Part shown: positions 17,315 to 51,154 of the stretch, one piece after another | How the letters are laid out: each line of letters starts with the position of its first letter | Position numbering within the stretch: the stretch's first letter is position 1 | NCBI RefSeq assembly: GCF_036373705.1 | Contig: NW_027102722.1 | Span: 62,001 to 126,000 of the forward strand | Direction: 5' to 3' | Origin: Amia ocellicauda | Lineage: Eukaryota > Chordata > Actinopteri > Amiiformes > Amiidae | Length of the DNA stretch: 64,000 nucleotides | Notes under the pieces: generated by a model | Seen by the model: the letters and a program-made list of their open reading frames with translations, nothing else | What the model was told of the DNA's origin: nothing | Database searches by the model: none | Program-made: the position numbers and the translations under genes

Positions 17315-18408
17315 ACACACAAATCGTTAAACAAAAAAGGTTATAAACACATTAACTACAATACCGGTTAGTAAGACGAAGGTGAGTCTCTCGTTAGTAT
17401 TGTTAGTCAGACATTAAATAACTACGCAGGTTAGTATTTATGTCAGGTAACTTCTCGTTATATATATATCAGTCTCATTTACGTTTAGGTGCCGAGAAAG
17501 ATCCTATCGTTACTTGTTACCACAATTTCCCTTAACTGATTATTATTCAATGATCAAGGATAGGCAGGGCCACCAATAATCTAACGTCTATTGACTTGTG
17601 TCAATTTCATACTAAACAGTTAAACAGGAATGAGAACATATTTCTCGGGGTTGACAGATTTTATTTCTAAAATTATCAACAAAACAGTTTAATGCAACAC
17701 ACATTTATATTTAAGAAAACTAAATGATATTACACATTCTAGAGTTATGAATCACAGAATAACATTTCTAAATGATTTCTCAAATGTCATGAATCATGAA
17801 CTCCAAACTGTTAAACTTATCTGAACTTCGTCGCAGAGAGGCTTCTCTGTCTTCGGGCTCAGATCACAGCACACGGCACATGGTCTGTGTGGTTTGGAAC
17901 AAAGGCAGTGCGGTTCGGCTTTGTCCAAGAACTTCCACTCAGTCGATGCAGCTGGAAGTTGGGGTTTCGCGAAATTAGAGTCTTTTCCAAACAGATTTTC
18001 CACTGGTTTGAAGGCTCCAAGGTTGTGCACAAAATCTTCTTTGTAAGCAGGGTTCCACCGTAGTTACTTGAAGACAAAGTCTTTGAGGAAAGCAGGGCCC
18101 TGTTCGTTCCAAGGGTCAAGTTTCTTAAGACTCAAATAGCTATTTAAATGACTGAACACTTTCATATACATTCGACGTACTCAATTGTCCAGCTGTAAAA
18201 CTCCACTGATCAGGTGGGCACAGGCGGGCATGCGCAGTCTGTAAAGTTCTTTCTTTAATATAGTCCTTTAATAGAATTCTTCGTACGGCTCAATCTCCTT
18301 CTCCCAGTTTAACTCTTCTGTTGCCGGCAAAGACTTGGTTGGTTTCTGGTTCCGGTTCGGGCAACAGAGCTACAGGTTGAGCTGTGGCAGCGAATTACTG
18401 GTTCAGGT

Positions 18409-18440
<32 letters not shown>

Positions 18441-19459
18441 CTGTGCACTGTTCCTTATAGTCTGTCAGATCAATAGGTGATTGGTTCTTGAGTTCTTGAG
18501 ATTGGATTTCGGTTTCAGCCCCCAGTGTCCTAATGGAGGGGGGCTTGATTTATGACTGATGTCAATCCATGCCATCTTTTGGAAATGCCGGTTGGCCCGG
18601 GTTCGTAGCTCTATGTCGGGATTTCGGCTCTCGTCCACTTCAAAGAGTTTTTGTCACCTACAGGCCCCTTTCTCCAGACATCTCATAGCAGGATTCAACC
18701 TATTTGGCCTCTTCTCGGTGCCATCCTCCCCAAAACTGTCACTTTGATGCAAACCAGTTCCAAGCTGATGAGCAAAGGAAATCTGATAACTTTGGGGGTG
18801 GAGAGGTCTTCTTTAGATCAGTGCTTCAGCTCAGAGCCCAAATGCTCTTATCAAAATACACCCAACATAACGCTACACAGTGGAACTGCAAGGCAATTGA
18901 TTAAAGGGACATGTGGTGAATTCCTTTTTATCTTTATACTGTTGTTGGATGTCTCCTGTTCCTCTAAGTCTCATTTGGCCTTGGTTTTCCCCCTCTGTGT
19001 TGAATAATCGGGCTCTAAATAGCCCCGGCGTTTCTCCTGCAGTTCTTCGTTCTTTCCACTGCTAGCGCTGCCTTTGTGCAGCTTGTTATAGGATATTGTG
19101 AACTGAACCTATTTTGCTGTGAATTTATATGTACTGCGAATAGTTTATTGTGGCTGGTCTTGGTCTGTCTGCACTAAATAAATGATTTGTATCAAGGGAT
19201 TATTTAGTTTGTCTGTGTACTTTTTTACCTAACCACTAAGGGCCACTCCTTGCACTTCACACATTTGCCCTTTTAATTACTCCCTTACTGACATACTTTA
19301 ACATGCAATGTGCGTGTGATAATAGTTTTAGCAGCCTGTTGCCATTCAGGTGAGACAATTCCTAGTAAATCCTTTTTTTTTTTTTTCATGTTGGTGCGCC
19401 GCGAAGGTTTTTGGTCTCAGCAAAGTGTGCCGTGGCATTACAACGCTTGGGAACCACTG
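17315..19459 (+). mobile_element. hAT element, left-truncated
   Basis: Near-identical to the preceding copy at +2706 bp, from a single-unit duplication. Confidence 0.88.
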
Positions 19460-19966
19460 GCTTGGCTTGTTGGGCATCCAGGTATGCACTGAGATTACGA
19501 TCGGCACGATGATTGTCGTTCTCAGGAGAATTGTGTTTCTTTGCTGATCACGTTCTCTGTCGCTTTTTACACAGTTCTTACAAGTGGCACATTGGGGATG
19601 AAGAGCAGAGCATGCTGACACGCATAGCTGTGGACTTCTGCATGGCATGGGGCCACAGGTCATTCCAAGTATTTCAAGACGCCTGCAAATGTGTGGACAC
19701 GTTGTGTTGGCCCAACCCTCACAGATTGTGCCAAGTCAAGTAGAGATGCATGTTGTGCTGTTCTAAAGTGACACGTCGTCAACGGCAAAAACATCTCTCA
19801 GAGTTCCTGGCTTGACTTGCCTCTGGAAGACAACACTTGCCCAGGCTGGATATTTGCCGAAAGAAGCAAAGAGGACTAGACACCTTGCCTAGACGCAACT
19901 GCATATTTCATTGTCACCTGGAAGGCCATCCAGGCTTTTCACCATCATGGCCCTCGGTCAACAAGG

Positions 19967-20020
19967 CGCCCGAACAGGGACTCGAACCCTGGACCCTCAG
20001 ATTAAAAGTCTGATGCTCTA
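19967..20020 (-). pseudogene. Truncated tRNA-Lys (3' 54 nt only)
   Basis: Same junction; first short unit of higher-order copy A. Confidence 0.92.
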
Positions 20021-21123
20021 ACACACAAATCGTTAAACAAAAAAGGTTATAAACACATTAACTACAATACCGGTTAGTAAGACGAAGGTGAGTCTCTCGT
20101 TAGTATTGTTAGTCAGACATTAAATAACTACGCAGGTTAGTATTTATGTCAGGTAACTTCTCGTTATATATATATCAGTCTCATTTACGTTTAGGTGCCG
20201 AGAAAGATCCTATCGTTACTTGTTACCACAATTTCCCTTAACTGATTATTATTCAATGATCAAGGATAGGCAGGGCCACCAATAATCTAACGTCTATTGA
20301 CTTGTGTCAATTTCAGACTAAACAGTTAAACAGGAATGAGAAGATATTTCTCGGGGTTGACAGATTTTATTTCTAAAATTATCAACAAAACAGTTTAATG
20401 CAACACACATTTATATTTAAGAAAACTAAATGATATTACACATTCTAGAGTTATGAATCACAGAATAACATTTCTAATTGATTTCTCAAATGTCATGAAT
20501 CATGAACTCCAAACTGTTAAACTTATCTGAACTTCGTCGCAGAGAGGCCTCTCTGTCTTCGGGCTCAGATCACAGCACACGGCACATGGTCCGTGTGGTT
20601 TGGAACAAAGGCAGTGCGGTTCGGCTTTGTCCAAGAACTTCCACTCAGTCGATGCAGATGGAAGTTGGGGTTTCGCGAAATTAGAGTCTTTTCCAAACAG
20701 ATTTTCCACTGGTTTGAAGGCTCCAAGGTTGTGCACAAAATCTTCTTTGTAAGCAGGGTTCCACCGTAGTTACTTGAAGACAAAGTCTTTCAGGAAAGCA
20801 GGGCCCTGTTCGTTCCAAGGGTCAAGTTTCTTAAGACTCAAATAGCTATTTAAATGACTGAACACTTTCATATACATTCGACTTACTCAATTGTCCAGCT
20901 GTAAAACTCCACTGATCAGGTGGGCACAGGCGGGCATGCGCAGTCTGTAAAGTTCTTTATTTAATAAAGTCCTTTAAAAGAATTCTTCGTACGGCTCAAT
21001 CTCCTTCTCCCAGTTTAACTCTTCTGTTGCCGGCAAAGACTTGGTTGGTTTCTGGTTCCGGTTCGGGCAACAGAGCTACAGGTTGAGCTGTGGCAGCGAG
21101 TTACTGGTTCAGGTGAGAGAGAA

Positions 21124-21164
<41 letters not shown>

Positions 21165-22183
21165 CTGTGCACTGTTCCTTATAGTCTGTCAGATCATTAG
21201 GTGATTGGTTCTTGAGTTCTTGAGATTGGATTTCGGTTTCAGCCCCCCCTGTCCTAATGGGGGGGGGCTTGATTTATGACTGATGTCAATCCATGCCATC
21301 TTTTGGAAATGCCGGTTGGCCCGGGTTCGTAGCTCTATGTCGGGATTTCGGCTCTCGTCCACTTCAAAGAGTTTTTATCACCTACAGGCCCCTTTCTCCA
21401 GACATCTCATAGCAGGATTCAACCTATTTGGCCTCTTCTCGGTGCCATCCTCCCCAAAACTGTCACTTTGATGCAAACCAGTTCCAAGCTGATGAGCAAA
21501 GGAAATCTGATAACTTTGGGGGTGGAGAGGTCTTCTTTAGATCAGTGCTTCAGCTCAGAGCCCAAATGCTCTTATCAAAATACACCCAACATAACGCTAC
21601 ACAGTGGAACTGCAAGGCAATTGATTAAAGGGACATGTGGTGAATTCCTTTTTATCTCTATACTGTTGTTGGATGTCTCCTCTTCCTCTAAGTCTCATTT
21701 GGCCTTGGTTTTCCCCCTCTGTGTTGAATAATCGGGCTCTAAATAGCCCCGGCGTTTCTCCTGCAGTTCTTCGTTCTTTCCACTGCTAGCGATGCCTTTG
21801 TGCAGCTTGTTATAGGATATTGTGAACTGAACCTATTTTGCTGTGAATTTATATTTACTGCGAATAGTTTATTGTGGCTGGTCTTGGTCTGTCTGCACTA
21901 AATAAATGATTTGTATCAAGGGATTATTTAGTTTGTCTGTGTACTTTTTTACCTAACCACTAAGGGCCACTCCTTGCACTTCACACATTTGCCCTTTTAA
22001 TTACTCCCTTACTGACATACTTTAACATGCAATGTGCGTGTGATAATAGTTTTAGCAGCCTGTTGCCATTCAGGTGAGACAATACCTAGTAAATCCTTTT
22101 TTTTTTTTTTCATGTTGGTGCGCCGCGAAGGTTTTTGGTCTCAGCAAAGTGTGCCGTGGCATTACAACGCTTGGGAACCACTG
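20021..22183 (+). mobile_element. hAT element, left-truncated
   Basis: Short-unit form but with the long-unit type interior (near-palindrome and long GA tract), a mosaic of the two classes. Confidence 0.88.
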
Positions 22184-22671
22184 GCTTGGCTTGTTGGGCA
22201 TCCAGGTATGCACTGAGATTACGATCGGCACGATGATTGTCGTTCTCAGGAGAATTGTGTTTCTTTGCTGATCATGTTCTCTGTCGCTTTTTACAAAGTT
22301 CTTACAAGTGGCACATTGGGGATGAGGCATAGCTGTGGACTTCTGCATGGCATGGGGCCACAGGTCATTCCAAGTATTTCAAGACGCCTGCAAATGTGTG
22401 GACACGTTGTGTTGGCCCAACCCTCACAGATTGTGCCAAGTCAAGTAGAGATGCATGTTGTGCTGTTCTAAAGTGACACGTCGTCAACGGCAAAAACATC
22501 TCTCAGAGTTCCTGGCTTGACTTGCCTCTGGAAGACAACACTTGCCCAGGCTGGATATTTGCCGAAAGAAGCAAAGAGGACTAGACACCTTGCCTAGACG
22601 CAACTGCATATTTCATTGTCACCTGGAAGGCCATCCAGGCTTTTCACCATCATGGCTCTCGGTCAACAAGG

Positions 22672-22744
22672 CGCCCGAACAGGGACTCGAACCCTGGACC
22701 CTCAGATTAAAAGTCTGATGCTCTACCGGCTGAGCTACCCGGGC
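22672..22744 (-). tRNA. tRNA-Lys (TTT)
   Basis: Complete, with the canonical T loop TTCGAGT. Lies in the first long unit of higher-order copy A; its twin is at 39045. Confidence 0.96.
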
Positions 22745-22970
22745 TTCAGTGAAGTGCTTCACAATGTGTTGGCTTCATGATTGTTCCAGACCGCTTTCTG
22801 GCCGGTTTAGAAAACTGGGCTCAGGGTCACATGCATATGAGATGTTTGGGCAATGCGAGTTCTCCACAGCAAATCCGAATTTCCGGTGTTTTCTCCTTGT
22901 CCTCATGCAATTCCAATGGCTTGACATTTGGGAGCTCGTCCAAAACCGATGTCAAACCATAATCACGCCT

Positions 22971-23059
22971 TCCTTCGAGCCGGAATTGAACCAGCGACCT
23001 AAGGATGCCCGCTGCCTGAAACCTACAGTCCTCCGCTCTACCAACTGAGCTATCGAAGG
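22971..23059 (-). tRNA. tRNA-Tyr (GTA) with 16-nt intron, intron allele C
   Basis: Exonic sequence identical to the copy at 4541. The plus-strand intron reads GCCCGCTGCCTGAAAC instead of GCCCGCTGTCTGAAAC. The spacer to tRNA-Lys is 9 bp shorter than in most units. Confidence 0.96.
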
Positions 23060-23129
23060 GAAGCTTCTCACCGTCTTCCCCTGGCAGTCTCAGTGGCCGT
23101 GCAAAGCCAAGAAGCACCGTGGCTTGGCT

Positions 23130-24755
23130 CAGTGGTTTTCAACCCGTGTGCCGTGAGGACTACCCAATTGTGTCGTGAGATTTTTATCCCCTGAAAAATA
23201 TTATGTCATTTTGTTTGGTCAACTTCATAAATCTTGTATCAAATCAAACTTATTCAAATGTGTGAAAATATTACATTTATACATCACCTGTAGAAAGCGT
23301 TTCATAACTGAATTGTTGTGTTTGCCGGACTGAACGCACACCTACACTGAGTTGCAGTGCTATCAGTTGTATCGTAAGGTACACTTATAAATTTCAATTT
23401 AAGAAGTGAATTTATAGTATCACCTTATCACGAATCCTGGAATCTTGTAGAACTCAATTTCTGTAATAATTGGACACAGACACCAATTCCAAAGATATAA
23501 ATTGTTAAATTTATTCAAAAACAAAGACTAAATGTAGCACTACACTAATTATACAAAAGGGAAAAGCTAATTAAAATTCAACTCTAGATCAACAAATCAA
23601 AGACAAATCACTTCCGTGACCAAATCAAAGACCATGGGATCGCATATGATAGCACACAAATCGTTTAACAAAAAAGGTTATAAACACATTAACTACAATA
23701 CCGGTTAGTAAGACGAAGGTGAGTCTCTCGTTAGTATTGTTAGTCAGACATTAAATAACTACGCAGGTTAGTATTTATGTCAGGTAACTTCTCGTTATAT
23801 ATATATCAGTCTCATTTACGTTTAGGTGCCGAGAAAGATCCTATCGTTACTTGTTACCACAATTTCCCTTAACTGATTATTATTCAATGATCAAGGATAG
23901 GCAGGGCCACCAATAATCTAACGTCTATTGACTTGTGTCAATTTCAGACTAAACAGTTAAACAGGAATGAGAAGATATTTCTCGGGGTTGACAGATTTTA
24001 TTTCTAAAATTATCAACAAAACAGTTTAATGCAACACACATTTATATTTAAGAAAACTAAATGATATTACACATTCTAGAGTTTTGAATCACAGAATAAC
24101 ATTTCTAATTGATTTCTCAAATGTCATGAATCATGAACTCCAAACTGTTAAACTTATCTGAACTTCGTCGCAGAGAGGCCTCTCTGTCTTCGGGCTCAGA
24201 TCACAGCACACGGCACATGGTCCGTGTGGTTTGGAACAAAGGCAGTGCGGTTCGGCTTTGTCCAAGAACTTCCACTCAGTCGAAGCACCTGGAAGTTGGG
24301 GTTTCGCGAAATTAGAGTCTTTTCCTAACAGATTTTCCACTGGTTTGAAGGCTCCAAGGTTGTGCACAAAATCTTCTTTGTAAGCAGGGTTCCACCGTAG
24401 TTACTTGAAGACAAAGTCTTTGAGGAAAGCAGGGCCCTGTTCGTTCCAAGGGTCAAGTTTCTTAAGACTCAAATAGCTATTTAAATGACTGAACACTTTC
24501 ATATACATTCGACTTACTCAATTGTCCAGCTGTAAAACTCCACTGATCAGGTGGGCACAGGCGGGCATGCACAGTCTGTAAAGTTCTTTATTTAATAAAG
24601 TCCTTTAAAAGAATTCTTCGTACGGCTCAATCTCCTTCTCCCAGTTTAACTCTTCTGTTGCCGGCAAAGACTTGGTTGGTTTCTGGTTCCGGTTCGGGCA
24701 ACAGAGCTACAGGTTGAGCTGTGGCAGCGAGTTACTGGTTCAGGTGAGAGAGAAA

Positions 24756-24801
<46 letters not shown>

Positions 24802-25816
24802 GCACTGTTCCTTATAGTCTGTCAGATCAATAGGTGATTGGTTCTTGAGTTCTTGAGATTGGATTTCGGTTTCAGCCCCCAGTGTCCTAATGGAGGGGGG
24901 CTTGATTTATGACTGATGTCAATCCATGCCATCTTTTGGAAATGCCGGTTGGCCCGGGTTCGTAGCTCTATGTCGGGATTTCGGCTCTCGTCCACTTCAA
25001 AGAGTTTTTATCACCTACAGGCCCCTTTCTCCAGACATCTCATAGCAGGATTCAACCTATTTGGCCTCTTCTCGGTGCCATCCTCCCCAAAACTGTCACT
25101 TTGATGCAAACCAGTTCCAAGCTGATGAGCAAAGGAAATCTGATAACTTTGGGGGTGGAGAGGTCTTCTTTAGATCAGTGCTTCAGCTCAGAGCCCAAAT
25201 GCTCTTATCAAAATACACCCAACATAACGCTACACAGTGGAACTGCAAGGCAATTGATTAAAGGGACATGTGGTGAATTCCTTTTCATCTTTATACTGTT
25301 GTTGGATGTCTCCTGTTCCTCTAAGTCTCATTTGGCCTTGGTTTTCCCCCTCTGTGTTGAATAATCGGGCTCTAAATAGCCCCGGCGTTTCTCCTGCAGT
25401 TCTTCGTTCTTTCCACTGCTAGCGCTGCCTTTGTGCAGCTTGTTATAGGATATTGTGAACTGAACCTATTTTGCTGTGAATTTATATGTACTGCGAATAG
25501 TTTATTGTGGCTGGTCTTGGTCTGTCTGCACTAAATAAATGATTTGTATCAAGGGATTATTTAGTTTGTCTGTGTACTTTTTTACCTAACCACTAAGGGC
25601 CACTCCTTGCACTTCACACATTTGCCCTTTTAATTACTCCCTTACTGACATACTTTAACATGCAATGTGCGTGTGATAATAGTTTTAGCAGCCTGTTGCC
25701 ATTCAGGTGAGACAATACCTAGTAAATCCTTTTTTTTTTTTTTCATGTTGGTGCGCCGCGAAGGTTTTTGGTCTCAGCAAAGTGTGCCGTGGCATTACAA
25801 CGCTTGGGAACCACTG
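23130..25816 (+). mobile_element. hAT element, full length (2687 bp)
   Basis: Both termini and TSD copies intact. Private bases include ATAGCACAC at the point where short copies are truncated. Confidence 0.9.
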
Positions 25817-26323
25817 GCTTGGCTTGTTGGGCATCCAGGTATGCACTGAGATTACGATCGGCACGATGATTGTCGTTCTCAGGAGAATTGTGTTTCTTTG
25901 CTGATCATGTTCTCTGTCGCTTTTTACAAAGTTCTTACAAGTGGCACATTGGGGATGAGGAGCAGAGCATGCTGACACGCATAGCTGTGGACTTCTGCAT
26001 GGCATGGGGCCACAGGTCATTCCAAGTATTTCAAGACGCCTGCAAATGTGTGGACACGTTGTGTTGGCCCAACCCTCACAGATTGTGCCAAGTCAAGTAG
26101 AGATGCATGTTGTGCTGTTCTAAAGTGACACGTCGTCAACGGCAAAAACATCTCTCAGAGTTCCTGGCTTGACTTGCCTCTGGAAGACAACACTTGCCCA
26201 GGCTGGATATTTGCCGAAAGAAGCAAAGAGGACTAGACACCTTGCCTAGACACAACTGCATATTTCATTGTCACCTGGAAGGCCATCCAGGCTTTTCACC
26301 ATCATGGCTCTCGGTCAACAAGG

Positions 26324-26396
26324 CGCCCGAACAGGGACTCAAACCCTGGACCCTCAGATTAAAAGTCTGATGCTCTACCGGCTGAGCTACCCGGGC
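26324..26396 (-). tRNA. tRNA-Lys (TTT), T-loop C56 changed to T
   Basis: Stems and anticodon match the other copies, but the T loop reads TTTGAGT instead of TTCGAGT. C56 normally pairs with G19 of the D loop to hold the L-shape, and it is also a nearly invariant base of the polymerase III B box. The copy is therefore probably poorly transcribed or unstable. The change is shared by 29985, 42697 and 46358. Confidence 0.85.
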
Positions 26397-26631
26397 TTCA
26401 GTGAAGTGCTTCACAATGTGTTGGCTTCATGATTGTTCCAGACCGCTTTCTGGCCGGTTTAAAAAACAGGGCTCAGGGTGAAAAGGGTCACATGCATATG
26501 AGATGTTTGGGCAATGCGAGTTCTCCACAGCAAATCCGAATTTCCGATGTTTTCTCCTTGTCCTCATGCAATTCCAATGGCTTGACATTTGGGAGCTCGT
26601 CCAAAACCGATGTCAAACCATAATCACGCCT

Positions 26632-26720
26632 TCCTTCGAGCCGGAATTGAACCAGCGACCTAAGGATGCCCGCTGTCTGAAACCTACAGTCCTCCGCTCT
26701 ACCAACTGAGCTATCGAAGG
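26632..26720 (-). tRNA. tRNA-Tyr (GTA) with 16-nt intron
   Basis: Exons and intron (T allele) identical to the copy at 4541. It remains intact although its neighbouring tRNA-Lys carries the T-loop change. Confidence 0.96.
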
Positions 26721-26790
26721 GAAGCTTCTCACCGTCTTCCCCTGGCAGTCTCAGTGGCCGTGCAAAGCCAAGAAGCACCGTGGCTTGGCT

Positions 26791-28416
26791 CAGTGGTTTT
26801 CAACCCGTGTGCCGTGAGGACTACCCAATTGTGTCGTGAGATTTTTATCCCCTGAAAAATATTATGTCATTTTGTTTGGTCAACTTCATAAATCTTGTAT
26901 CAAATCAAACTTATTCAAATGTGTGAAAATATTACATTTATACATCACCTGTAGAAAGCGTTTCATAACTGAAATGTTGTGTTTGCCGGACTGAACGCAC
27001 ACCTACACTGAGTTGCAGTGCTATCAGTTGTATCGTAAGGTACACTTATAAATTTCAATTTAAGAAGTGAATTTATAGTATCACCTTATCACGAATCCTG
27101 GAATCTTGTAGAACTCAATTTCTGTAATAATTGGACACAGACACCAATTCCAAAGATATAAATTGTTAAATTTATTCAAAAACAAAGACTAAATGTAGCA
27201 CTACACTAATTATACAAAAGGGAAAAGCTAATTAAAATTCAACTCTAGATCAACAAATCAAAGACAAATCACTTCCGTGACCAAATCAAAGACCATGGGA
27301 TCGCATATGATAACACACAAATCGTTAAACAAAAAAGGTTATAAACACATTAACTACAATACCGGTTAGTAAGACGAAGGTGAGTCTCTCGTTAGTATTG
27401 TTAGTCAGACATTAAATAACTACGCAGGTTAGTATTTATGTCAGGTAACTTCTCGTTATATATATATCAGTCTCATTTACGTTTAGGTGCCGAGAAAGAT
27501 CCTATCGTTACTTGTTACCACAATTTCCCTTAACTGATTATTATTCAATGATCAAGGATAGGCAGGGCCACCAATAATCTAACGTCTATTGACTTGTGTC
27601 AATTTCAGACTAAACAGTTAAACAGGAATGAGAAGATATTTCTCGGGGTTGACAGATTTTATTTCTAAAATTATCAACAAAACAGTTTAATGCAACACAC
27701 ATTTATATTTAAGAAAACTAAATGATATTACATATTCTAGAGTTTTGAATCACAGAATAACATTTCTAATTGATTTCTCAAATGTCATGAATCATGAACT
27801 CCAAACTGTTAAACTTATCTGAACTTCGTCGCAGAGAGGCCTCTCTGTCTTCGGGCTCAGATCACAGCACACGGCACATGGTCCGTGTGGTTTGGAACAA
27901 AGGCAGTGCGGTTCGGCTTTGTCCAAGAACTTCCACTCAGTCGATGCACCTGGAAATTGGGGTTTCGCGAAATTAGAGTCTTTTCCAAACAGATTTTCCA
28001 CTGGTTTGAAGGCTCCAAGGTTGTGCACAAAATCTTCTTTGTAAGCAGGGTTCCAACGTAGTTACTTGAAGACAAAGTCTTTGAGGAAAGCAGGGCCCTG
28101 TTCGTTCCAAGGGTCAAGTTTCTTAAGACTCAAATAGCTATTTAAATGACTGAACACTTTCATATACATTCGACTTACTCAATTGTCCAGCTGTAAAACT
28201 CCACTGATCAGGTGGGCACAGGCGGGCATGCGCAGTCTGTAAAGTTCTTTATTTAATAAAGTCCTTTAATAGAATTCTTCGTACGGCTCAATCTCCTTCT
28301 CCCAGTTTAACTCTTCTGTTGCCGGCAAAGACTTGGTTGGTTTCTGGTTCCGGTTCGGGCAACAGAGCTACAGGTTGAGCTGTGGCAGCGAGTTACTGGT
28401 TCAGGTGAGAGAGAAA

Positions 28417-28462
<46 letters not shown>

Positions 28463-29477
28463 GCACTGTTCCTTATAGTCTGTCAGATCAATAGGTGATT
28501 GGTTCTTGAGTTCTTGAGATTGGATTTCGGTTTCAGCCCCCAGTGTCCTAATGGAGGGGGGCTTGATTTATGACTGATGTCAATCCATGCCATCTTTTGG
28601 AAATGCCGGTTGGCCCGGGTTCGTAGCTCTATGTCGGGATTTCGGCTCTCGTCCACTTCAAAGAGTTTTTATCACCTACAGGCCCCTTTCTCCAGACATC
28701 TCATAGCAGGATTCAACCTATTTGGCCTCTTCTCGGTGCCATCCTCCCCAAAACTGTCACTTTGATGCAAACCAGTTCCAAGCTGATGAGCAAAGGAAAT
28801 CTGATAACTTTGGGGGTGGAGAGGTCTTCTTTAGATCAGTGCTTCAGCTCAGAGCCCAAATGCTCTTATCAAAATACACCCAACATAACGCTACACAGTG
28901 GAACTGCAAGGCAATTGATTAAAGGGACATGTGGTGAATTCCTTTTCATCTTTATACTGTTGTTGGATGTCTCCTGTTCCTCTAAGTCTCATTTGGCCTT
29001 GGTTTTCCCCCTCTGTGTTGAATAATCGGGCTCTAAATAGCCCCGGCGTTTCTCCTGCAGTTCTTCGTTCTTTCCACTGCTAGCGCTGCCTTTGTGCAGC
29101 TTGTTATAGGATATTGTGAACTGAACCTATTTTGCTGTGAATTTATATGTACTGCGAATAGTTTATTGTGGCTGGTCTTGGTCTGTCTGCACTAAATAAA
29201 TGATTTGTATCAAGGGATTATTTAGTTTGTCTGTGTACTTTTTTACCTAACCACTAAGGGCCACTCCTTGCACTTCACACATTTGCCCTTTTAATTACTC
29301 CCTTACTGACATACTTTAACATGCAATGTGCGTGTGATAATAGTTTTAGCAGCCTGTTGCCATTCAGGTGAGACAATACCTAGTAAATCCTTTTTTTTTT
29401 TTTTCATGTTGGTGCGCCGCGAAGGTTTTTGGTCTCAGCAAAGTGTGCCGTGGCATTACAACGCTTGGGAACCACTG
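26791..29477 (+). mobile_element. hAT element, full length (2687 bp)
   Basis: Both termini and TSD copies intact. Shares CCAACGTAG (instead of CCACCGTAG) with the next copy. Confidence 0.9.
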
Positions 29478-29984: not shown

Positions 29985-30057
29985 CGCCCGAACAGGGACT
30001 CAAACCCTGGACCCTCAGATTAAAAGTCTGATGCTCTACCGGCTGAGCTACCCGGGC
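29985..30057 (-). tRNA. tRNA-Lys (TTT), T-loop C56 changed to T
   Basis: Same T-loop variant as 26324, from which this unit was probably duplicated. No further change seen. Confidence 0.85.
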
Positions 30058-30381: not shown

Positions 30382-30451
30382 GAAGCTTCTCACCGTCTTC
30401 CCCTGGCAGTCTCAGTGGCCGTGCAAAGCCAAGAAGCACCGTGGCTTGGCT

Positions 30452-37496: not shown

Positions 37497-37537
<41 letters not shown>

Positions 37538-39044: not shown

Positions 39045-39117
39045 CGCCCGAACAGGGACTCGAACCCTGGACCCTCAGATTAAAAGTCTGATGCTCTACC
39101 GGCTGAGCTACCCGGGC
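39045..39117 (-). tRNA. tRNA-Lys (TTT)
   Basis: Higher-order copy B twin of 22672, with the canonical T loop and no difference seen. Confidence 0.96.
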
Positions 39118-39343
39118 TTCAGTGAAGTGCTTCACAATGTGTTGGCTTCATGATTGTTCCAGACCGCTTTCTGGCCGGTTTAGAAAACTGGGCTCAGGGT
39201 CACATGCATATGAGATGTTTGGGCAATGCGAGTTCTCCACAGCAAATCCGAATTTCCGGTGTTTTCTCCTTGTCCTCATGCAATTCCAATGGCTTGACAT
39301 TTGGGAGCTCGTCCAAAACCGATGTCAAACCATAATCACGCCT

Positions 39344-39432
39344 TCCTTCGAGCCGGAATTGAACCAGCGACCTAAGGATGCCCGCTGCCTGAAACCTACA
39401 GTCCTCCGCTCTACCAACTGAGCTATCGAAGG
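39344..39432 (-). tRNA. tRNA-Tyr (GTA) with 16-nt intron, intron allele C
   Basis: Copy B twin of 22971, with the same intron allele and the same shortened spacer. Confidence 0.96.
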
Positions 39433-39502
39433 GAAGCTTCTCACCGTCTTCCCCTGGCAGTCTCAGTGGCCGTGCAAAGCCAAGAAGCACCGTGGCTTGG
39501 CT

Positions 39503-41128
39503 CAGTGGTTTTCAACCCGTGTGCCGTGAGGACTACCCAATTGTGTCGTGAGATTTTTATCCCCTGAAAAATATTATGTCATTTTGTTTGGTCAACTTCA
39601 TAAATCTTGTATCAAATCAAACTTATTCAAATGTGTGAAAATATTACATTTATACATCACCTGTAGAAAGCGTTTCATAACTGAATTGTTGTGTTTGCCG
39701 GACTGAACGCACACCTACACTGAGTTGCAGTGCTATCAGTTGTATCGTAAGGTACACTTATAAATTTCAATTTAAGAAGTGAATTTATAGTATCACCTTA
39801 TCACGAATCCTGGAATCTTGTAGAACTCAATTTCTGTAATAATTGGACACAGACACCAATTCCAAAGATATAAATTGTTAAATTTATTCAAAAACAAAGA
39901 CTAAATGTAGCACTACACTAATTATACAAAAGGGAAAAGCTAATTAAAATTCAACTCTAGATCAACAAATCAAAGACAAATCACTTCCGTGACCAAATCA
40001 AAGACCATGGGATCGCATATGATAGCACACAAATCGTTTAACAAAAAAGGTTATAAACACATTAACTACAATACCGGTTAGTAAGACGAAGGTGAGTCTC
40101 TCGTTAGTATTGTTAGTCAGACATTAAATAACTACGCAGGTTAGTATTTATGTCAGGTAACTTCTCGTTATATATATATCAGTCTCATTTACGTTTAGGT
40201 GCCGAGAAAGATCCTATCGTTACTTGTTACCACAATTTCCCTTAACTGATTATTATTCAATGATCAAGGATAGGCAGGGCCACCAATAATCTAACGTCTA
40301 TTGACTTGTGTCAATTTCAGACTAAACAGTTAAACAGGAATGAGAAGATATTTCTCGGGGTTGACAGATTTTATTTCTAAAATTATCAACAAAACAGTTT
40401 AATGCAACACACATTTATATTTAAGAAAACTAAATGATATTACACATTCTAGAGTTTTGAATCACAGAATAACATTTCTAATTGATTTCTCAAATGTCAT
40501 GAATCATGAACTCCAAACTGTTAAACTTATCTGAACTTCGTCGCAGAGAGGCCTCTCTGTCTTCGGGCTCAGATCACAGCACACGGCACATGGTCCGTGT
40601 GGTTTGGAACAAAGGCAGTGCGGTTCGGCTTTGTCCAAGAACTTCCACTCAGTCGAAGCACCTGGAAGTTGGGGTTTCGCGAAATTAGAGTCTTTTCCTA
40701 ACAGATTTTCCACTGGTTTGAAGGCTCCAAGGTTGTGCACAAAATCTTCTTTGTAAGCAGGGTTCCACCGTAGTTACTTGAAGACAAAGTCTTTGAGGAA
40801 AGCAGGGCCCTGTTCGTTCCAAGGGTCAAGTTTCTTAAGACTCAAATAGCTATTTAAATGACTGAACACTTTCATATACATTCGACTTACTCAATTGTCC
40901 AGCTGTAAAACTCCACTGATCAGGTGGGCACAGGCGGGCATGCACAGTCTGTAAAGTTCTTTATTTAATAAAGTCCTTTAAAAGAATTCTTCGTACGGCT
41001 CAATCTCCTTCTCCCAGTTTAACTCTTCTGTTGCCGGCAAAGACTTGGTTGGTTTCTGGTTCCGGTTCGGGCAACAGAGCTACAGGTTGAGCTGTGGCAG
41101 CGAGTTACTGGTTCAGGTGAGAGAGAAA

Positions 41129-41174
<46 letters not shown>

Positions 41175-42189
41175 GCACTGTTCCTTATAGTCTGTCAGAT
41201 CAATAGGTGATTGGTTCTTGAGTTCTTGAGATTGGATTTCGGTTTCAGCCCCCAGTGTCCTAATGGAGGGGGGCTTGATTTATGACTGATGTCAATCCAT
41301 GCCATCTTTTGGAAATGCCGGTTGGCCCGGGTTCGTAGCTCTATGTCGGGATTTCGGCTCTCGTCCACTTCAAAGAGTTTTTATCACCTACAGGCCCCTT
41401 TCTCCAGACATCTCATAGCAGGATTCAACCTATTTGGCCTCTTCTCGGTGCCATCCTCCCCAAAACTGTCACTTTGATGCAAACCAGTTCCAAGCTGATG
41501 AGCAAAGGAAATCTGATAACTTTGGGGGTGGAGAGGTCTTCTTTAGATCAGTGCTTCAGCTCAGAGCCCAAATGCTCTTATCAAAATACACCCAACATAA
41601 CGCTACACAGTGGAACTGCAAGGCAATTGATTAAAGGGACATGTGGTGAATTCCTTTTCATCTTTATACTGTTGTTGGATGTCTCCTGTTCCTCTAAGTC
41701 TCATTTGGCCTTGGTTTTCCCCCTCTGTGTTGAATAATCGGGCTCTAAATAGCCCCGGCGTTTCTCCTGCAGTTCTTCGTTCTTTCCACTGCTAGCGCTG
41801 CCTTTGTGCAGCTTGTTATAGGATATTGTGAACTGAACCTATTTTGCTGTGAATTTATATGTACTGCGAATAGTTTATTGTGGCTGGTCTTGGTCTGTCT
41901 GCACTAAATAAATGATTTGTATCAAGGGATTATTTAGTTTGTCTGTGTACTTTTTTACCTAACCACTAAGGGCCACTCCTTGCACTTCACACATTTGCCC
42001 TTTTAATTACTCCCTTACTGACATACTTTAACATGCAATGTGCGTGTGATAATAGTTTTAGCAGCCTGTTGCCATTCAGGTGAGACAATACCTAGTAAAT
42101 CCTTTTTTTTTTTTTTCATGTTGGTGCGCCGCGAAGGTTTTTGGTCTCAGCAAAGTGTGCCGTGGCATTACAACGCTTGGGAACCACTG
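39503..42189 (+). mobile_element. hAT element, full length (2687 bp)
   Basis: Copy B twin of 23130; both ends and TSD copies intact. Confidence 0.9.
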
Positions 42190-42696
42190 GCTTGGCTTGT
42201 TGGGCATCCAGGTATGCACTGAGATTACGATCGGCACGATGATTGTCGTTCTCAGGAGAATTGTGTTTCTTTGCTGATCATGTTCTCTGTCGCTTTTTAC
42301 AAAGTTCTTACAAGTGGCACATTGGGGATGAGGAGCAGAGCATGCTGACACGCATAGCTGTGGACTTCTGCATGGCATGGGGCCACAGGTCATTCCAAGT
42401 ATTTCAAGACGCCTGCAAATGTGTGGACACGTTGTGTTGGCCCAACCCTCACAGATTGTGCCAAGTCAAGTAGAGATGCATGTTGTGCTGTTCTAAAGTG
42501 ACACGTCGTCAACGGCAAAAACATCTCTCAGAGTTCCTGGCTTGACTTGCCTCTGGAAGACAACACTTGCCCAGGCTGGATATTTGCCGAAAGAAGCAAA
42601 GAGGACTAGACACCTTGCCTAGACACAACTGCATATTTCATTGTCACCTGGAAGGCCATCCAGGCTTTTCACCATCATGGCTCTCGGTCAACAAGG

Positions 42697-42769
42697 CGCC
42701 CGAACAGGGACTCAAACCCTGGACCCTCAGATTAAAAGTCTGATGCTCTACCGGCTGAGCTACCCGGGC
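42697..42769 (-). tRNA. tRNA-Lys (TTT), T-loop C56 changed to T
   Basis: Copy B twin of 26324 with the same TTTGAGT T loop. Confidence 0.85.
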
Positions 42770-43004
42770 TTCAGTGAAGTGCTTCACAATGTGTTGGCTT
42801 CATGATTGTTCCAGACCGCTTTCTGGCCGGTTTAAAAAACAGGGCTCAGGGTGAAAAGGGTCACATGCATATGAGATGTTTGGGCAATGCGAGTTCTCCA
42901 CAGCAAATCCGAATTTCCGATGTTTTCTCCTTGTCCTCATGCAATTCCAATGGCTTGACATTTGGGAGCTCGTCCAAAACCGATGTCAAACCATAATCAC
43001 GCCT

Positions 43005-43093
43005 TCCTTCGAGCCGGAATTGAACCAGCGACCTAAGGATGCCCGCTGTCTGAAACCTACAGTCCTCCGCTCTACCAACTGAGCTATCGAAGG
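43005..43093 (-). tRNA. tRNA-Tyr (GTA) with 16-nt intron
   Basis: Copy B twin of 26632; complete, intron T allele. Confidence 0.96.
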
Positions 43094-43163
43094 GAAGCTT
43101 CTCACCGTCTTCCCCTGGCAGTCTCAGTGGCCGTGCAAAGCCAAGAAGCACCGTGGCTTGGCT

Positions 43164-44789
43164 CAGTGGTTTTCAACCCGTGTGCCGTGAGGACTACCCA
43201 ATTGTGTCGTGAGATTTTTATCCCCTGAAAAATATTATGTCATTTTGTTTGGTCAACTTCATAAATCTTGTATCAAATCAAACTTATTCAAATGTGTGAA
43301 AATATTACATTTATACATCACCTGTAGAAAGCGTTTCATAACTGAAATGTTGTGTTTGCCGGACTGAACGCACACCTACACTGAGTTGCAGTGCTATCAG
43401 TTGTATCGTAAGGTACACTTATAAATTTCAATTTAAGAAGTGAATTTATAGTATCACCTTATCACGAATCCTGGAATCTTGTAGAACTCAATTTCTGTAA
43501 TAATTGGACACAGACACCAATTCCAAAGATATAAATTGTTAAATTTATTCAAAAACAAAGACTAAATGTAGCACTACACTAATTATACAAAAGGGAAAAG
43601 CTAATTAAAATTCAACTCTAGATCAACAAATCAAAGACAAATCACTTCCGTGACCAAATCAAAGACCATGGGATCGCATATGATAACACACAAATCGTTA
43701 AACAAAAAAGGTTATAAACACATTAACTACAATACCGGTTAGTAAGACGAAGGTGAGTCTCTCGTTAGTATTGTTAGTCAGACATTAAATAACTACGCAG
43801 GTTAGTATTTATGTCAGGTAACTTCTCGTTATATATATATCAGTCTCATTTACGTTTAGGTGCCGAGAAAGATCCTATCGTTACTTGTTACCACAATTTC
43901 CCTTAACTGATTATTATTCAATGATCAAGGATAGGCAGGGCCACCAATAATCTAACGTCTATTGACTTGTGTCAATTTCAGACTAAACAGTTAAACAGGA
44001 ATGAGAAGATATTTCTCGGGGTTGACAGATTTTATTTCTAAAATTATCAACAAAACAGTTTAATGCAACACACATTTATATTTAAGAAAACTAAATGATA
44101 TTACATATTCTAGAGTTTTGAATCACAGAATAACATTTCTAATTGATTTCTCAAATGTCATGAATCATGAACTCCAAACTGTTAAACTTATCTGAACTTC
44201 GTCGCAGAGAGGCCTCTCTGTCTTCGGGCTCAGATCACAGCACACGGCACATGGTCCGTGTGGTTTGGAACAAAGGCAGTGCGGTTCGGCTTTGTCCAAG
44301 AACTTCCACTCAGTCGATGCACCTGGAAATTGGGGTTTCGCGAAATTAGAGTCTTTTCCAAACAGATTTTCCACTGGTTTGAAGGCTCCAAGGTTGTGCA
44401 CAAAATCTTCTTTGTAAGCAGGGTTCCAACGTAGTTACTTGAAGACAAAGTCTTTGAGGAAAGCAGGGCCCTGTTCGTTCCAAGGGTCAAGTTTCTTAAG
44501 ACTCAAATAGCTATTTAAATGACTGAACACTTTCATATACATTCGACTTACTCAATTGTCCAGCTGTAAAACTCCACTGATCAGGTGGGCACAGGCGGGC
44601 ATGCGCAGTCTGTAAAGTTCTTTATTTAATAAAGTCCTTTAATAGAATTCTTCGTACGGCTCAATCTCCTTCTCCCAGTTTAACTCTTCTGTTGCCGGCA
44701 AAGACTTGGTTGGTTTCTGGTTCCGGTTCGGGCAACAGAGCTACAGGTTGAGCTGTGGCAGCGAGTTACTGGTTCAGGTGAGAGAGAAA

Positions 44790-44835
<46 letters not shown>

Positions 44836-45850
44836 GCACTGTTCCTTATAGTCTGTCAGATCAATAGGTGATTGGTTCTTGAGTTCTTGAGATTGGATTT
44901 CGGTTTCAGCCCCCAGTGTCCTAATGGAGGGGGGCTTGATTTATGACTGATGTCAATCCATGCCATCTTTTGGAAATGCCGGTTGGCCCGGGTTCGTAGC
45001 TCTATGTCGGGATTTCGGCTCTCGTCCACTTCAAAGAGTTTTTATCACCTACAGGCCCCTTTCTCCAGACATCTCATAGCAGGATTCAACCTATTTGGCC
45101 TCTTCTCGGTGCCATCCTCCCCAAAACTGTCACTTTGATGCAAACCAGTTCCAAGCTGATGAGCAAAGGAAATCTGATAACTTTGGGGGTGGAGAGGTCT
45201 TCTTTAGATCAGTGCTTCAGCTCAGAGCCCAAATGCTCTTATCAAAATACACCCAACATAACGCTACACAGTGGAACTGCAAGGCAATTGATTAAAGGGA
45301 CATGTGGTGAATTCCTTTTCATCTTTATACTGTTGTTGGATGTCTCCTGTTCCTCTAAGTCTCATTTGGCCTTGGTTTTCCCCCTCTGTGTTGAATAATC
45401 GGGCTCTAAATAGCCCCGGCGTTTCTCCTGCAGTTCTTCGTTCTTTCCACTGCTAGCGCTGCCTTTGTGCAGCTTGTTATAGGATATTGTGAACTGAACC
45501 TATTTTGCTGTGAATTTATATGTACTGCGAATAGTTTATTGTGGCTGGTCTTGGTCTGTCTGCACTAAATAAATGATTTGTATCAAGGGATTATTTAGTT
45601 TGTCTGTGTACTTTTTTACCTAACCACTAAGGGCCACTCCTTGCACTTCACACATTTGCCCTTTTAATTACTCCCTTACTGACATACTTTAACATGCAAT
45701 GTGCGTGTGATAATAGTTTTAGCAGCCTGTTGCCATTCAGGTGAGACAATACCTAGTAAATCCTTTTTTTTTTTTTTCATGTTGGTGCGCCGCGAAGGTT
45801 TTTGGTCTCAGCAAAGTGTGCCGTGGCATTACAACGCTTGGGAACCACTG
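43164..45850 (+). mobile_element. hAT element, full length (2687 bp)
   Basis: Copy B twin of 26791; both ends and TSD copies intact. Confidence 0.9.
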
Positions 45851-46357
45851 GCTTGGCTTGTTGGGCATCCAGGTATGCACTGAGATTACGATCGGCACGA
45901 TGATTGTCGTTCTCAGGAGAATTGTGTTTCTTTGCTGATCATGTTCTCTGTCGCTTTTTACAAAGTTCTTAAAAGTGGCACATTGGGGATGAGGAGCAGA
46001 GCATGCTGACACGCATAGCTGTGGACTTCTGCATGGCATGGGGCCACAGGTCATTCCAAGTATTTCAAGACGCCTGCAAATGTGTGGACACGTTGTGTTG
46101 GCCCAACCCTCACAGATTGTGCCAAGTCAAGTAGAGATGCATGTTGTGCTGTTCTAAAGTGACACGTCGTCAACGGCAAAAACATCTCTCAGAGTTCCTG
46201 GCTTGACTTGCCTCTGGAAGACAACACTTGCCCAGGCTGGATATTTGCCGAAAGAAGCAAAGAGGACTAGACACCTTGCCTAGACACAACTGCATATTTC
46301 ATTGTCACCTGGAAGGCCATCCAGGCTTTTCACCATCATGGCTCTCGGTCAACAAGG

Positions 46358-46430
46358 CGCCCGAACAGGGACTCAAACCCTGGACCCTCAGATTAAAAGT
46401 CTGATGCTCTACCGGCTGAGCTACCCGGGC
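46358..46430 (-). tRNA. tRNA-Lys (TTT), T-loop C56 changed to T
   Basis: Copy B twin of 29985 with the same TTTGAGT T loop. Confidence 0.85.
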
Positions 46431-46665
46431 TTCAGTGAAGTGCTTCACAATGTGTTGGCTTCATGATTGTTCCAGACCGCTTTCTGGCCGGTTTAAAAAA
46501 CAGGGCTCAGGGTGAAAAGGGTCACATGCATATGAGATGTTTGGGCAATGCGAGTTCTCCACAGCAAATCCGAATTTCCGATGTTTTCTCCTTGTCCTCA
46601 TGCAATTCCAATGGCTTGACTTTTGGGAGCTCGTCCAAAACCGATGTCAAACCATAATCACGCCT

Positions 46666-46754
46666 TCCTTCGAGCCGGAATTGAACCAGCGACCTAAGGA
46701 TGCCCGCTGTCTGAAACCTACAGTCCTCCGCTCTACCAACTGAGCTATCGAAGG
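46666..46754 (-). tRNA. tRNA-Tyr (GTA) with 16-nt intron
   Basis: Copy B twin of 30293; complete, intron T allele, and the same private spacer base. Confidence 0.96.
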
Positions 46755-46824
46755 GAAGCTTCTCACCGTCTTCCCCTGGCAGTCTCAGTGGCCGTGCAAA
46801 GCCAAGAAGCACCGTGGCTTGGCT

Positions 46825-48440
46825 CAGTGGTTTTCAACCCGTGTGCCGTGAGGACTACCCAATTGTGTCGTGAGATTTTTATCCCCTGAAAAATATTATG
46901 TCATTTTGTTTGGTCAACTTCATAAATCTTGTATCAAATCAAACTTATTCAAATGTGTGAAAATATTACATTTATACATCACCTGTAGAAAGCGTTTCAT
47001 AACTGAAATGTTGTGTTTGCCGGACTGAACGCACACCTACACTGAGTTGCAGTGCTATCAGTTGTATCGTAAGGTACACTTATAAATTTCAATTTAAGAA
47101 GTGAATTTATAGTATCACCTTATCACGAATCCTGGAATCTTGTAGAACTCAATTTCTGTAATAATTGGACACAGACACCAATTCCAAAGATATAAATTGT
47201 TAAATTTATTCAAAAACAAAGACTAAATGTAGCACTACACTAATTATACAAAAGGGAAAAGCTAATTAAAATTCAACTCTAGATCAACAAATCAAAGACA
47301 AATCACTTCCGTGACCAAATCAAAGACCATGGGATCGCATATGATAACACACAAATCGTTAAACAAAAAAGGTTATAAACACATTAACTACAATACCGGT
47401 TAGTAAGACGAAGGTGAGTCTCTCGTTAGTATTGTTAGTCAGACATTAAATAACTACGCAGGTTAGTATTTATGTCAGGTAACTTCTCGTTATATATATA
47501 TCAGTCTCATTTACGTTTAGGTGCCGAGAAAGATCCTATCGTTACTTGTTACCACAATTTCCCTTAACTGATTATTATTCAATGATCAAGGATAGGCAGG
47601 GCCACCAATAATCTAACGTCTATTGACTTGTGTCAATTTCAGACTAAACAGTTAAACAGGAATGAGAAGATATTTCTCGGGGTTGACAGATTTTATTTCT
47701 AAAATTATCAACAAAACAGTTTAATGCAACACACATTTATATTTAAGAAAACTAAATGATATTACATATTCTAGAGTTTTGAATCACAGAATAACATTTC
47801 TAATTGATTTCTCAAATGTCATGAATCATGAACTCCAAACTGTTAAACTTATCTGAACTTCGTCGCAGAGAGGCCTCTCTGTCTTCGGGCTCAGATCACA
47901 GCACACGGCACATGGTCCGTGTGGTTTGGAACAAAGGCAGTGCGGTTCGGCTTTGTCCAAGAACTTCCACTCAGTCGATGCACCTGGAAATTGGGGTTTC
48001 GCGAAATTAGAGTCTTTTCCAAACAGATTTTCCACTGGTTTGAAGGCTCCAAGGTTGTGCACAAAATCTTCTTTGTAAGCAGGGTTCCAACGTAGTTACT
48101 TGAAGACAAAGTCTTTGAGGAAAGCAGGGCCCTGTTCGTTCCAAGGGTCAAGTTTCTTAAGACTCAAATAGCTATTTAAATGACTGAACACTTTTATATA
48201 CATTCGACTTACTCAATTGTCCAGCTGTAAAACTCCACTGATCAGGTGGGCACAGGCGGGCATGCGCAGTCTGTAAAGTTCTTTATTTAATAAAGTCCTT
48301 TAATAGAATTCTTCGTACGGCTCAATCTCCTTCTCCCAGTTTAACTCTTCTGTTGCCGGCAAAGACTTGGTTGGTTTCTGGTTCCGGTTCGGGCAACAGA
48401 GCTACAGGTTGAGCTGTGGCAGCGAGTTACTGGTTCAGGT

Positions 48441-48484
<44 letters not shown>

Positions 48485-49499
48485 GCACTGTTCCTTATAG
48501 TCTGTCAGATCAATAGGTGATTGGTTCTTGAGTTCTTGAGATTGGATTTCGGTTTCAGCCCCCAGTGTCCTAATGGGGGGGGGCTTGATTTATGACTGAT
48601 GTCAATCCATGCCATCTTTTGGAAATGCCGGTTGGCCCGGGTTCGTAGCTCTATGTCGGGATTTCGGCTCTCGTCCACTTCAAAGAGTTTTTATCACCTA
48701 CAGGCCCCTTTCTCCAGACATCTCATAGCAGGATTCAACCTATTTGGCCTCTTCTCGGTGCCATCCTCCCCAAAACTGTCACTTTGATGCAAACCAGTTC
48801 CAAGCTGATGAGCAAAGGAAATCTGATAACTTTGGGGGTGGAGAGGTCTTCTTTAGATCAGTGCTTCAGCTCAGAGCCCAAATGCTCTTATCAAAATACA
48901 CCCAACATAACGCTACACAGTGGAACTGCAAGGCAATTGATTAAAGGGACATGTGGTGAATTCCTTTTTATCTTTATACTGTTGTTGGATGTCTCCTGTT
49001 CCTCTAAGTCTCATTTGGCCCTGGTTTTCCCCCTCTGTGTTGAATAATCGGGCTCTAAATAGCCCCGGCGTTTCTCCTGCAGTTCTTCGTTCTTTCCACT
49101 GCTAGCGCTGCCTTTGTGCAGCTTGTTATAGGATATTGTGAACTGAACCTATTTTGCTGTGAATTTATATTTACTGCGAATAGTTTATTGTGGCTGGTCT
49201 TGGTCTGTCTGCACTAAATAAATGATTTGTATCAAGGGATTATTTAGTTTGTCTGTGTACTTTTTTACCTAACCACTAAGGGCCACTCCTTGCACTTCAC
49301 ACATTTGCCCTTTTAATTACTCCCTTACTGACATACTTTAACATGCAATGTGCGTGTGATAATAGTTTTAGCAGCCTGTTGCCATTCAGGTGAGACAATA
49401 CCTAGTAAATCCTTTTTTTTTTTTTTCATGTTGGTGCGCCGCGAAGGTTTTTGGTCTCAGCAAAGTGTGCCGTGGCATTACAACGCTTGGGAACCACTG
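46825..49499 (+). mobile_element. hAT element, full length (2675 bp)
   Basis: Copy B twin of 30452; both ends and TSD copies intact. Confidence 0.9.
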
Positions 49500-50006
49500 G
49501 CTTGGCTTGTTGGGCATCCAGGTATGCACTGAGATTACGATCGGCACGATGATTGTCGTTCTCAGGAGAGTTGTGTTTCTTTGCTGATCACGTTCTCTGT
49601 GGCTTTTTACACAGTTCTTACAAGTGGCACATTGGGGATGAAGAGCAGAGCATGCTGACACGCATAGCTGTGGACTTCTGCATGGCATGGGGCCACAGGT
49701 CATTCCAAGTATTTCAAGACGCCTGCAAATGTGTGGACACGTTGTGTTGGCCCAACCCTCACAGATTATGCCAAGTCAAGTAGAGATGCATGTTGTGCTG
49801 TTCTAAAGTGACACGTCATCAACGGCAAAAACATCTCTCAGAGTTCCTGACTTGACTTGCCTCTGGAAGACAACACTTGCCCAGGCTGGATATTTGCCGA
49901 AAGAAGCAAAGAGGACTAGACACCTTGCCTAGACGCAACTGCATATTTCATTGTCACCTGGAAGGCCATCCAGGCTTTTCACCATCATGGCCCTCGGTCA
50001 ACAAGG

Positions 50007-50060
50007 CGCCCGAACAGGGACTCGAACCCTGGACCCTCAGATTAAAAGTCTGATGCTCTA
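50007..50060 (-). pseudogene. Truncated tRNA-Lys (3' 54 nt only)
   Basis: Copy B twin of 33634. Confidence 0.92.
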
Positions 50061-51154
50061 ACACACAAATCGTTAAACAAAAAAGGTTATAAACACATTA
50101 ACTACAATACCGGTTAGTAAGACGAAGGTGAGTCTCTCGTTAGTATTGTTAGTCAGACATTAAATAACTACGCAGTTTAGTATTTATGTCAGGTAACTTC
50201 TCGTTATATATATATCAGTCTCATTTACGTTTAGGTGCCGAGAAAGATCCTATCATTACTTGTTACCACAATTTCCCTTAACTGATTATTATTCAATGAT
50301 CAAGGATAGGCAGGGCCACCAATAATCTAACGTCTATTGACTTGTGTCAATTTCAGACTAAACAGTTAAACAGGAATGAGAAGATATTTCTCGGGGTTGA
50401 CAGATTTTATTTCTAAAATTATCAACAAAACAGTTTAATGCAACACACATTTATATTTAAGAAAACTAAATGATATTACACATTCTAGAGTTTTGAATCA
50501 CAGAATAACATTTCTAATTGATTTCTCAAATGTCATGAATCATGAACTCCAAACTGTTAAACTTATCTGAACTTCGTCGCAGAGAGGCCTCTCTGTCTTC
50601 GGGCTCAGATCACAGCACACGACACATGGTCCGTGTGGTTTGGAACAAAGGCAGTGCGGTTCGGCTTTGTCCAAGAACTTCCACTCAGTCGATGCACCTG
50701 GAAATTGGGGTTTCGCGAAATTAGAGTCTTTTCCAAACAGATTTTCCACTGGTTTGAAGGCTCCAAGGTTGTGCACAAAATCTTCTTTGTAAGCAGGGTT
50801 CCACCGTAGTTACTTGAAGACAAAGTCTTTGAGGAAAGCAGGGCCCTGTTCGTTCCAAGGGTCAAGTTTCTTAAGACTCAAATAGCTATTTAAATGACTG
50901 AACACTTTCATATACATTCGACTTACTCAATTGTCCAGCTGTAAAACTCCACTGATCAGGTGGGCACAGGCGGGCATGCGCAGTCTGTAAAGTTCTTTCT
51001 TTAATATAGTCCTTTAATAGAATTCTTCGTACGGCTCAATCTCCTTCTCCCAGTTTAACTCTTCTGTTGCCGGCAAAGACTTGGTTGGTTTCTGGTTCCG
51101 GTTCGGGCAACAGAGCTACAGGTTGAGCTGTGGCAGCGAGTTACTGGTTCAGGT

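Follow-up and report, generated by a model that had tools for sequence, protein, structure and literature searches.

In Xenopus laevis, a 3.18-kb tandem repeat of transfer RNA (tRNA) genes, or tDNA, carries several tRNA genes, including those for Lys and Tyr, and forms long tandem arrays. In alpha satellite DNA, the period of a higher-order repeat spans several units, and copies of the period resemble one another much more closely than their constituent units do; such repeats are made by unequal exchange, the textbook engine of tandem-array evolution. The closest described case found for the locus reported here is the human tRNA variable-number tandem repeat at 1q23.3, which is described as unstable in copy number in both meiosis and mitosis (PMC4041453). 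Clustered tRNA genes are also described in zebrafish and stickleback (PMC2888827), and those on zebrafish chromosome 4 are proposed to be maternal, which the source words as a hypothesis (PMC11075544). The present locus is a tandem tRNA-gene array of head-to-tail, kilobase-scale units in Amia ocellicauda, which runs through most of a 64,000-nucleotide stretch of contig NW_027102722.1 (positions 62,001 to 126,000 of the forward strand in assembly GCF_036373705.1; hereafter, the window) and in which five consecutive units occur twice in a row with almost no divergence.

By description, the array resembles the Xenopus tDNA in having a unit of about 3 kb with Lys and Tyr genes, the Xenopus unit containing more tRNA genes. 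It differs from alpha satellite in that only two period copies are present and in that its units are kilobases long and gene-bearing. With the human repeat it shares a kilobase-scale unit with multiple tRNA genes, copies that are approximately 98% alike, and simple repeats in each unit; the human unit, as described, is 7.3 kb long and rich in guanine and cytosine (GC), with five other tRNA genes (Leu, Gly, Glu, Gly, and Asp) and a CTCF site (PMC4041453), whereas the units here are mostly 2.7–3.9 kb long with approximately 43% GC and Lys and Tyr genes. The array fits among such loci. Its setting may also be compared with the heterochromatic arm of zebrafish chromosome 4, described as a repeat-rich region where tRNA genes are concentrated in large numbers (PMC11075544). 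The tRNA gene arrays of Entamoeba likewise combine tRNA genes and short tandem repeats in one unit but belong to a protist, have up to five tRNA genes per unit, and account for almost all of its tRNA genes, as described (PMC2652664). No description of the present array was seen among the open-licence papers that the literature searches listed.

The two blocks and the hybrid unit at their join

Positions without a prefix are those of the window; C87 is the contig that holds it, and C38, C383, C88, C43, C82, and similar labels denote other contigs of the 988-Mb assembly. Blocks, units, and single differences are given without strand. The array spans approximately 17–123.7 kb of C87, of which positions 1–61702 of the window are a part, and is followed by non-array flank. 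Block 1 (17886–34258) and its tandem copy, block 2 (34259–50631), each consist of five units and 16,373 bp. A reading made previously from the sequence alone (the sequence-only reading) had recorded these blocks with only three base differences seen by eye, and pairwise comparison from 17886 and 34259 gave the same result, with equal lengths and exactly three mismatches over 16,373 bp, at 20145, 21248, and 21249 (T/C, C/A, and C/G in blocks 1 and 2, respectively). The unit lengths that it had given (2724-3633-3661-3649-2706) were recovered with three cut points, one of them directly behind the (GA)n tract, while a fourth gave 2706-3631-3661-3661-2714, with an equal sum. The longest exact tract at the block offset was 13,009 bp (21250–34258). 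Identity at this offset starts already at 17877, and the block boundary is therefore ambiguous by 9 bp (17877–17885, equivalent to 34250–34258).

The differences between the blocks were placed on an alignment of 64 units from four contigs (32 from C87, 23 from C38, 7 from C383, and 2 from C88). The T at 20145 corresponds to C at 36518, which is private to block 2 (one of the 63 units with a base there; one of the 64 is gapped), and the CC at 21248–21249, which is private to block 1 (one of 64 units), corresponds to AG at 37621–37622. Because each difference is private to one unit, they are probably later changes, amounting to two events if the adjacent CC is counted once. Ordinary unit pairs, alike at approximately 98% or more, showed a median of 29 differences (substitutions plus gap runs; 496 pairs among the 32 units of C87, 2.7–3.9 kb), and a five-unit repeated run appeared in none of 2000 shuffles of the 30 unit spacings on C87; the block repeat is thus not a product of chance. 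A total of three differences across 16,373 bp, where single unit pairs have a median of 29, is the pattern of a higher-order repeat, of which C87 holds two period copies and no more.

The unit at the join (31903–34616) is a hybrid of two parent types. Its left 2347 bp showed no differences from the fifth unit of block 2 (48276–50989) and from that unit alone, the next nearest of 63 units having 12 differences, while its right 358 bp showed none from the unit preceding block 1 (15538–18243). Conversely, on the right the fifth unit of block 2 departs from the hybrid at 4 of the 358 positions, and on the left the unit preceding block 1 departs from it by 22 substitutions and one gap; these left and right counts also separate the parents from each other (approximately 0.9%). 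The exchange would therefore lie at 34250–34258, between the diagnostic positions 34249, where the hybrid has the A of the fifth unit of block 2, and 34259, where it has the T of the unit preceding block 1. A 31-mer across the join (34240–34270) occurs once in the assembly; the motif in its four-way form has 413 places genome-wide, one of which is this 31-mer. An in-register hybrid at the join, flanked on either side by its parent types, is the arrangement of a repeat made by unequal exchange, and the unit alignment showed neither inserted bases nor an out-of-register join at the junction. The exchange interval also falls almost wholly within the loop of a small inverted repeat seen by eye at 34243–34264 (CACACGG...CCGTGTG in the common unit form), with both diagnostic bases in its arms; this overlap is probably a coincidence.

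Origin of the paired blocks

The sharp in-register hybrid, the parent types on both sides, and the private changes in each block together point to a duplication by exchange between copies misaligned by five units. We consider it probable that the blocks arose by a recent tandem duplication of this kind, through in-register unequal exchange between misaligned array copies. The array would have paired with a copy of itself (on a sister chromatid or a homologue) five units out of register, and homologous unequal crossing-over, or an equivalent homology-directed switch of replication template, would have created the hybrid in a cell and not in an assembler. The outcome would be three more Lys-type and three more Tyr genes per block. 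If mutation in fish proceeds at 0.5-1e-8 per base and generation, the two to three changes give a rough age of approximately 6,000–18,000 generations, a figure that gene conversion would shift. The sequence-only reading had left a choice between a very recent duplication and an assembly duplication; the unique hybrid, the private changes, and the differing block periods on other contigs favour a real and recent one, which by our rough estimate is clearly more probable than an assembly error.

Related arrays were found on other contigs. In reversed orientation, C38 carries units of 2739, 3637, 2713, 3948, and 2726 bp, followed by 2706, 3631, and 3661 bp, which is the C87 series ahead of the block; C38 thus shares an array core and a near-identical array end with C87, lacks the duplication, and differs in the middle. 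C383 has a three-unit tandem block of its own, with 1, 1, and 1 differences, the last being a 19-base gap. Among the arrays represented in the unit-motif places listed, of 413, repeated runs of spacings were detected with periods of 15,645 bp in one C38 array (shuffle P 0.0015) and 16,659 bp in one C43 array (P 0.0035). On C88 (14483–22743), successive short-unit junctions are spaced at 1402, 2710, 1402, and 2710 bp, which suggests a block repeat of 4,112 bp.

Several observations weigh against duplication by unequal exchange. The CC at 21248 adjoins a run of C, where sequencing error is likelier. The right 358 bp of the hybrid are matched equally well by three units (C87 74812, C87 77538, which is the unit preceding block 1, and one on C38), so that a right-hand parent type can be named but no single unit proven. 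An exchange interval of 9 bp is short for a crossover, although the surrounding kilobases are approximately 99% identical. The extra 2706-bp unit ahead of block 1 has no counterpart on C38, where the 2726-bp unit leads directly into the first block unit. Among other arrays, the repeated runs on C38 and C43 span three spacings each and are known from spacings alone, which makes them weaker cases, and no repeated spacing run was found in three of the six arrays listed (the other C38 array, the second C43 array, and C82). Furthermore, of the four block periods, those of 15,645, 16,373, and 16,659 bp are near a common long-read length, and the behaviour of the assembly or a ceiling in the resolution of the assembler could explain them.

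The short exchange interval is accommodated by a replication-based duplication, by template switch or break-induced replication, in which a homologous unit served as the landing site. This is a sub-case of duplication by unequal exchange, so that confidence in the two overlaps, and taken alone we regard it as a tentative possibility. Its product is identical to that of crossing-over. In yeast, segmental duplications are described as arising via replication-based repair (PMC2518615), and tRNA clusters are described as unstable and as interfering with replication forks (PMC2888827). On the other side, the sequence does not separate this route from crossing-over, and the clean, in-register junction carries no inserted bases.

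The periods near 16 kb also bear on an assembly duplication, in which one true block was placed twice, or near-identical alleles or neighbouring array copies were joined in tandem; we consider this unlikely. In its favour, the block divergence of 3 in 16,373 bp is similar in magnitude to the divergence of the C87 and C38 flanks (2 in 19,243 bp), as if one place had been represented twice, and all but one of the four block periods lie near 16 kb, which is close to a common long-read length. Four array contigs are short (145–307 kb), and copies of the array and flank are scattered over many contigs, both of which mark the region as hard to assemble. The join argues otherwise, being a sharp in-register hybrid of units approximately 0.9% apart whose 31-mer is found nowhere else in the assembly, so that a molecule, real or chimeric, must presumably have held it. 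Each block also has a private change, block repeats on other contigs differ in period, and the longest exact tract, 13,009 bp, is within reach of usual long reads. Old blocks homogenised by gene conversion are very unlikely: the mosaic relationships of units across arrays suggest that conversion does occur, but many small conversions should leave a patchwork and not five consecutive units that match across 16 kb and are equal in length, a single 16-kb conversion would be indistinguishable from a duplication, and the hybrid unit sets the boundary where a duplication predicts it.

Unit types and tRNA genes

While the sequence-only reading had the block structure exactly right, the tRNA-gene array and the larger repeated segment described below went unrecognised in it. 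The window contained 28 Rfam tRNA matches, all on the minus strand, comprising 10 Lys-type (66.6–69.2 bits), 10 Tyr-type (59.4 bits), and 8 Lys remnants (32 bits). ARAGORN assigned all 10 Lys-type genes to Lys(TTT) and, once introns were permitted, 9 of the 10 Tyr-type genes to Tyr(GTA), the exception being at 11202. Long units (approximately 3.6 kb) typically carry a tRNA-Lys(TTT) and an intron-bearing tRNA-Tyr, as well as A- and B-box-like sequence seen by eye. In short units (approximately 2.7 kb), the Tyr gene and the 5' part of the Lys gene are gone by one common deletion, which joins mid-Lys to sequence past Tyr with an apparent two-base overlap and removes the Lys 5' end, the A box, and all of Tyr. 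The deletion junction was present in 20 of the 64 aligned units, with one further unit containing both forms, and at 126 exact places genome-wide, compared with 413 exact places of a unit motif. Since the junction is shared, the short units are apparently of single origin and spread later, which suggests descent from one deletion; the turnover proposed for the blocks would also have spread them.

Each block is composed of three long and two short units. In block 1, the tRNA-Lys(TTT) genes, identified by Rfam and ARAGORN, are at 22672–22744, 26324–26396, and 29985–30057, and the tRNA-Tyr(GTA) genes at 22971–23059 (with an intron), 26632–26720, and 30293–30381, all on the minus strand. The corresponding genes of block 2, also on the minus strand, are at 39045–39117 (copy of the gene at 22672), 42697–42769, and 46358–46430 for Lys and at 39344–39432 (copy of the gene at 22971), 43005–43093, and 46666–46754 for Tyr. 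The first Lys gene of block 1 has a canonical T loop, while the second and third of each block have the B box GGTTTGA instead of GGTTCGA; this change was found in 4 of the 10 Lys genes of the window, all within the 3661-bp units of the two blocks. The T for C in the B box may weaken these four genes, judging from the motif. The first TTTT follows three Lys genes (4233, 22672, and 59191) at +156 or +176 and two Tyr genes at +26, and the usual nearby terminator thus seems to be absent for the three Lys genes examined. The Lys remnant of a short unit in block 1 (19975–20031, minus strand) has lost its 5' end and A box, and further Lys remnants in the blocks are at 33642, 36348, and 50015.

Beyond these two unit types, a 3,067-bp unit (50990–54056) had no tRNA match, a loss by some change other than the common deletion. 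ARAGORN also reported Lys-position genes with anticodon TTC or CTT and Tyr-position genes with GGA, that is, anticodon changes within the array, at C87:27777, C87:21679, and C87:60157 and at 6812, 10727, and 46371 of C38 reversed (loci L019–L028 joined). A Lys 43-mer had 241 exact places genome-wide, and those listed include C2:60701358-60708825, C5:51688327-51705143, and C57:120133-199997, where the spacings are different and partly regular (2,475 bp on C2).

Simpler classes of repeat were set aside. Tandem Repeats Finder (periods to 500) returned 18 GA tracts and one 74-bp pair in the window, which does not fit a short-period satellite; the (GA)n tract of one unit, at 18409–18440 on the plus strand, is one of these 18, listed from 2675 to 57920. 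A protein-coding repeat was likewise rejected, as the sole open reading frame of at least 150 amino acids in the window (bacterial start rules) sits in the flank.

The flank and a repeated segment of approximately 100 kb

Non-array sequence starts at 61703 and continues to the end of the window (61703–64000, without strand). The sequence C87:122901-142143 has a near-identical counterpart on C38 (19,243 bp, 2 mismatches). With a 4-kb flank probe (C87:133001-137000), the 37 places scored, of 2084 candidates, comprised 23 full-length places reported as 100% identical (the probe's own included), 12 at 98–99%, and 2 partial ones. Six contigs had at least two flank places in the closest class, if a partial one on C99 is included; within each contig these places all had the same direction, at distances of 94–117 kb and, once, 186 kb. 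The 98–99% places occurred in both directions on C20, C219, and C284; on C20, places at 35.39 and 35.56 Mb have opposite directions. The 40 best array matches fell on 18 contigs, and 14 of these also had the flank. This recurrence of the flank together with arrays indicates that the array belongs to a repeat of approximately 100 kb, and C87 and C38 may accordingly be alleles or separate copies; the simple view that they are two alleles of one place is weakened by the 23 flank places reported as 100% identical.

Five translations chosen from the flank were compared with Pfam, and one matched a reverse transcriptase above the cut-off, one matched DDE_3 below it, and three had no match, a result that does not favour a coding function in the flank. 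The two matches, one to RVT_1 (E 1.1e-21) in what remains of a reverse transcriptase and a weak one to a DDE_3 transposase, lie at C87:142021-142908 and 144632-144913.

The unequal exchange proposed here is an ordinary process caught unusually cleanly. Private unit variants allow the exchange joint to be pinned, and to our knowledge a joint located to within a few bases, where the product and both of its parent types remain adjacent, is not often available. As predicted from the sequence, the extra block would add six tRNA genes that seem complete, among which two Lys genes have the B-box change. If the assembly holds, the 413 exact unit-motif places mean that many such exchange events could be counted.

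The array-carrying repeat of approximately 100 kb is more interesting than the block duplication itself. We would offer, as a speculation more likely wrong than right, that the array and its flank represent a single copy of a repeat with three levels, made up of units of mostly 2.7–3.9 kb, arrays of approximately 7–32 units (among those seen), and a segment of approximately 94–117 kb whose flank occurs at no fewer than 23 near-identical places, in head-to-tail order on contigs with at least two of them, with the arrays gaining private block duplications. Such a repeat could act as a store that raises the dosage of Lys and Tyr tRNA genes, perhaps for the egg, in line with the hypothesis on zebrafish chromosome 4. 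If this three-level organisation is true, the pace of unequal exchange would be readable event by event.

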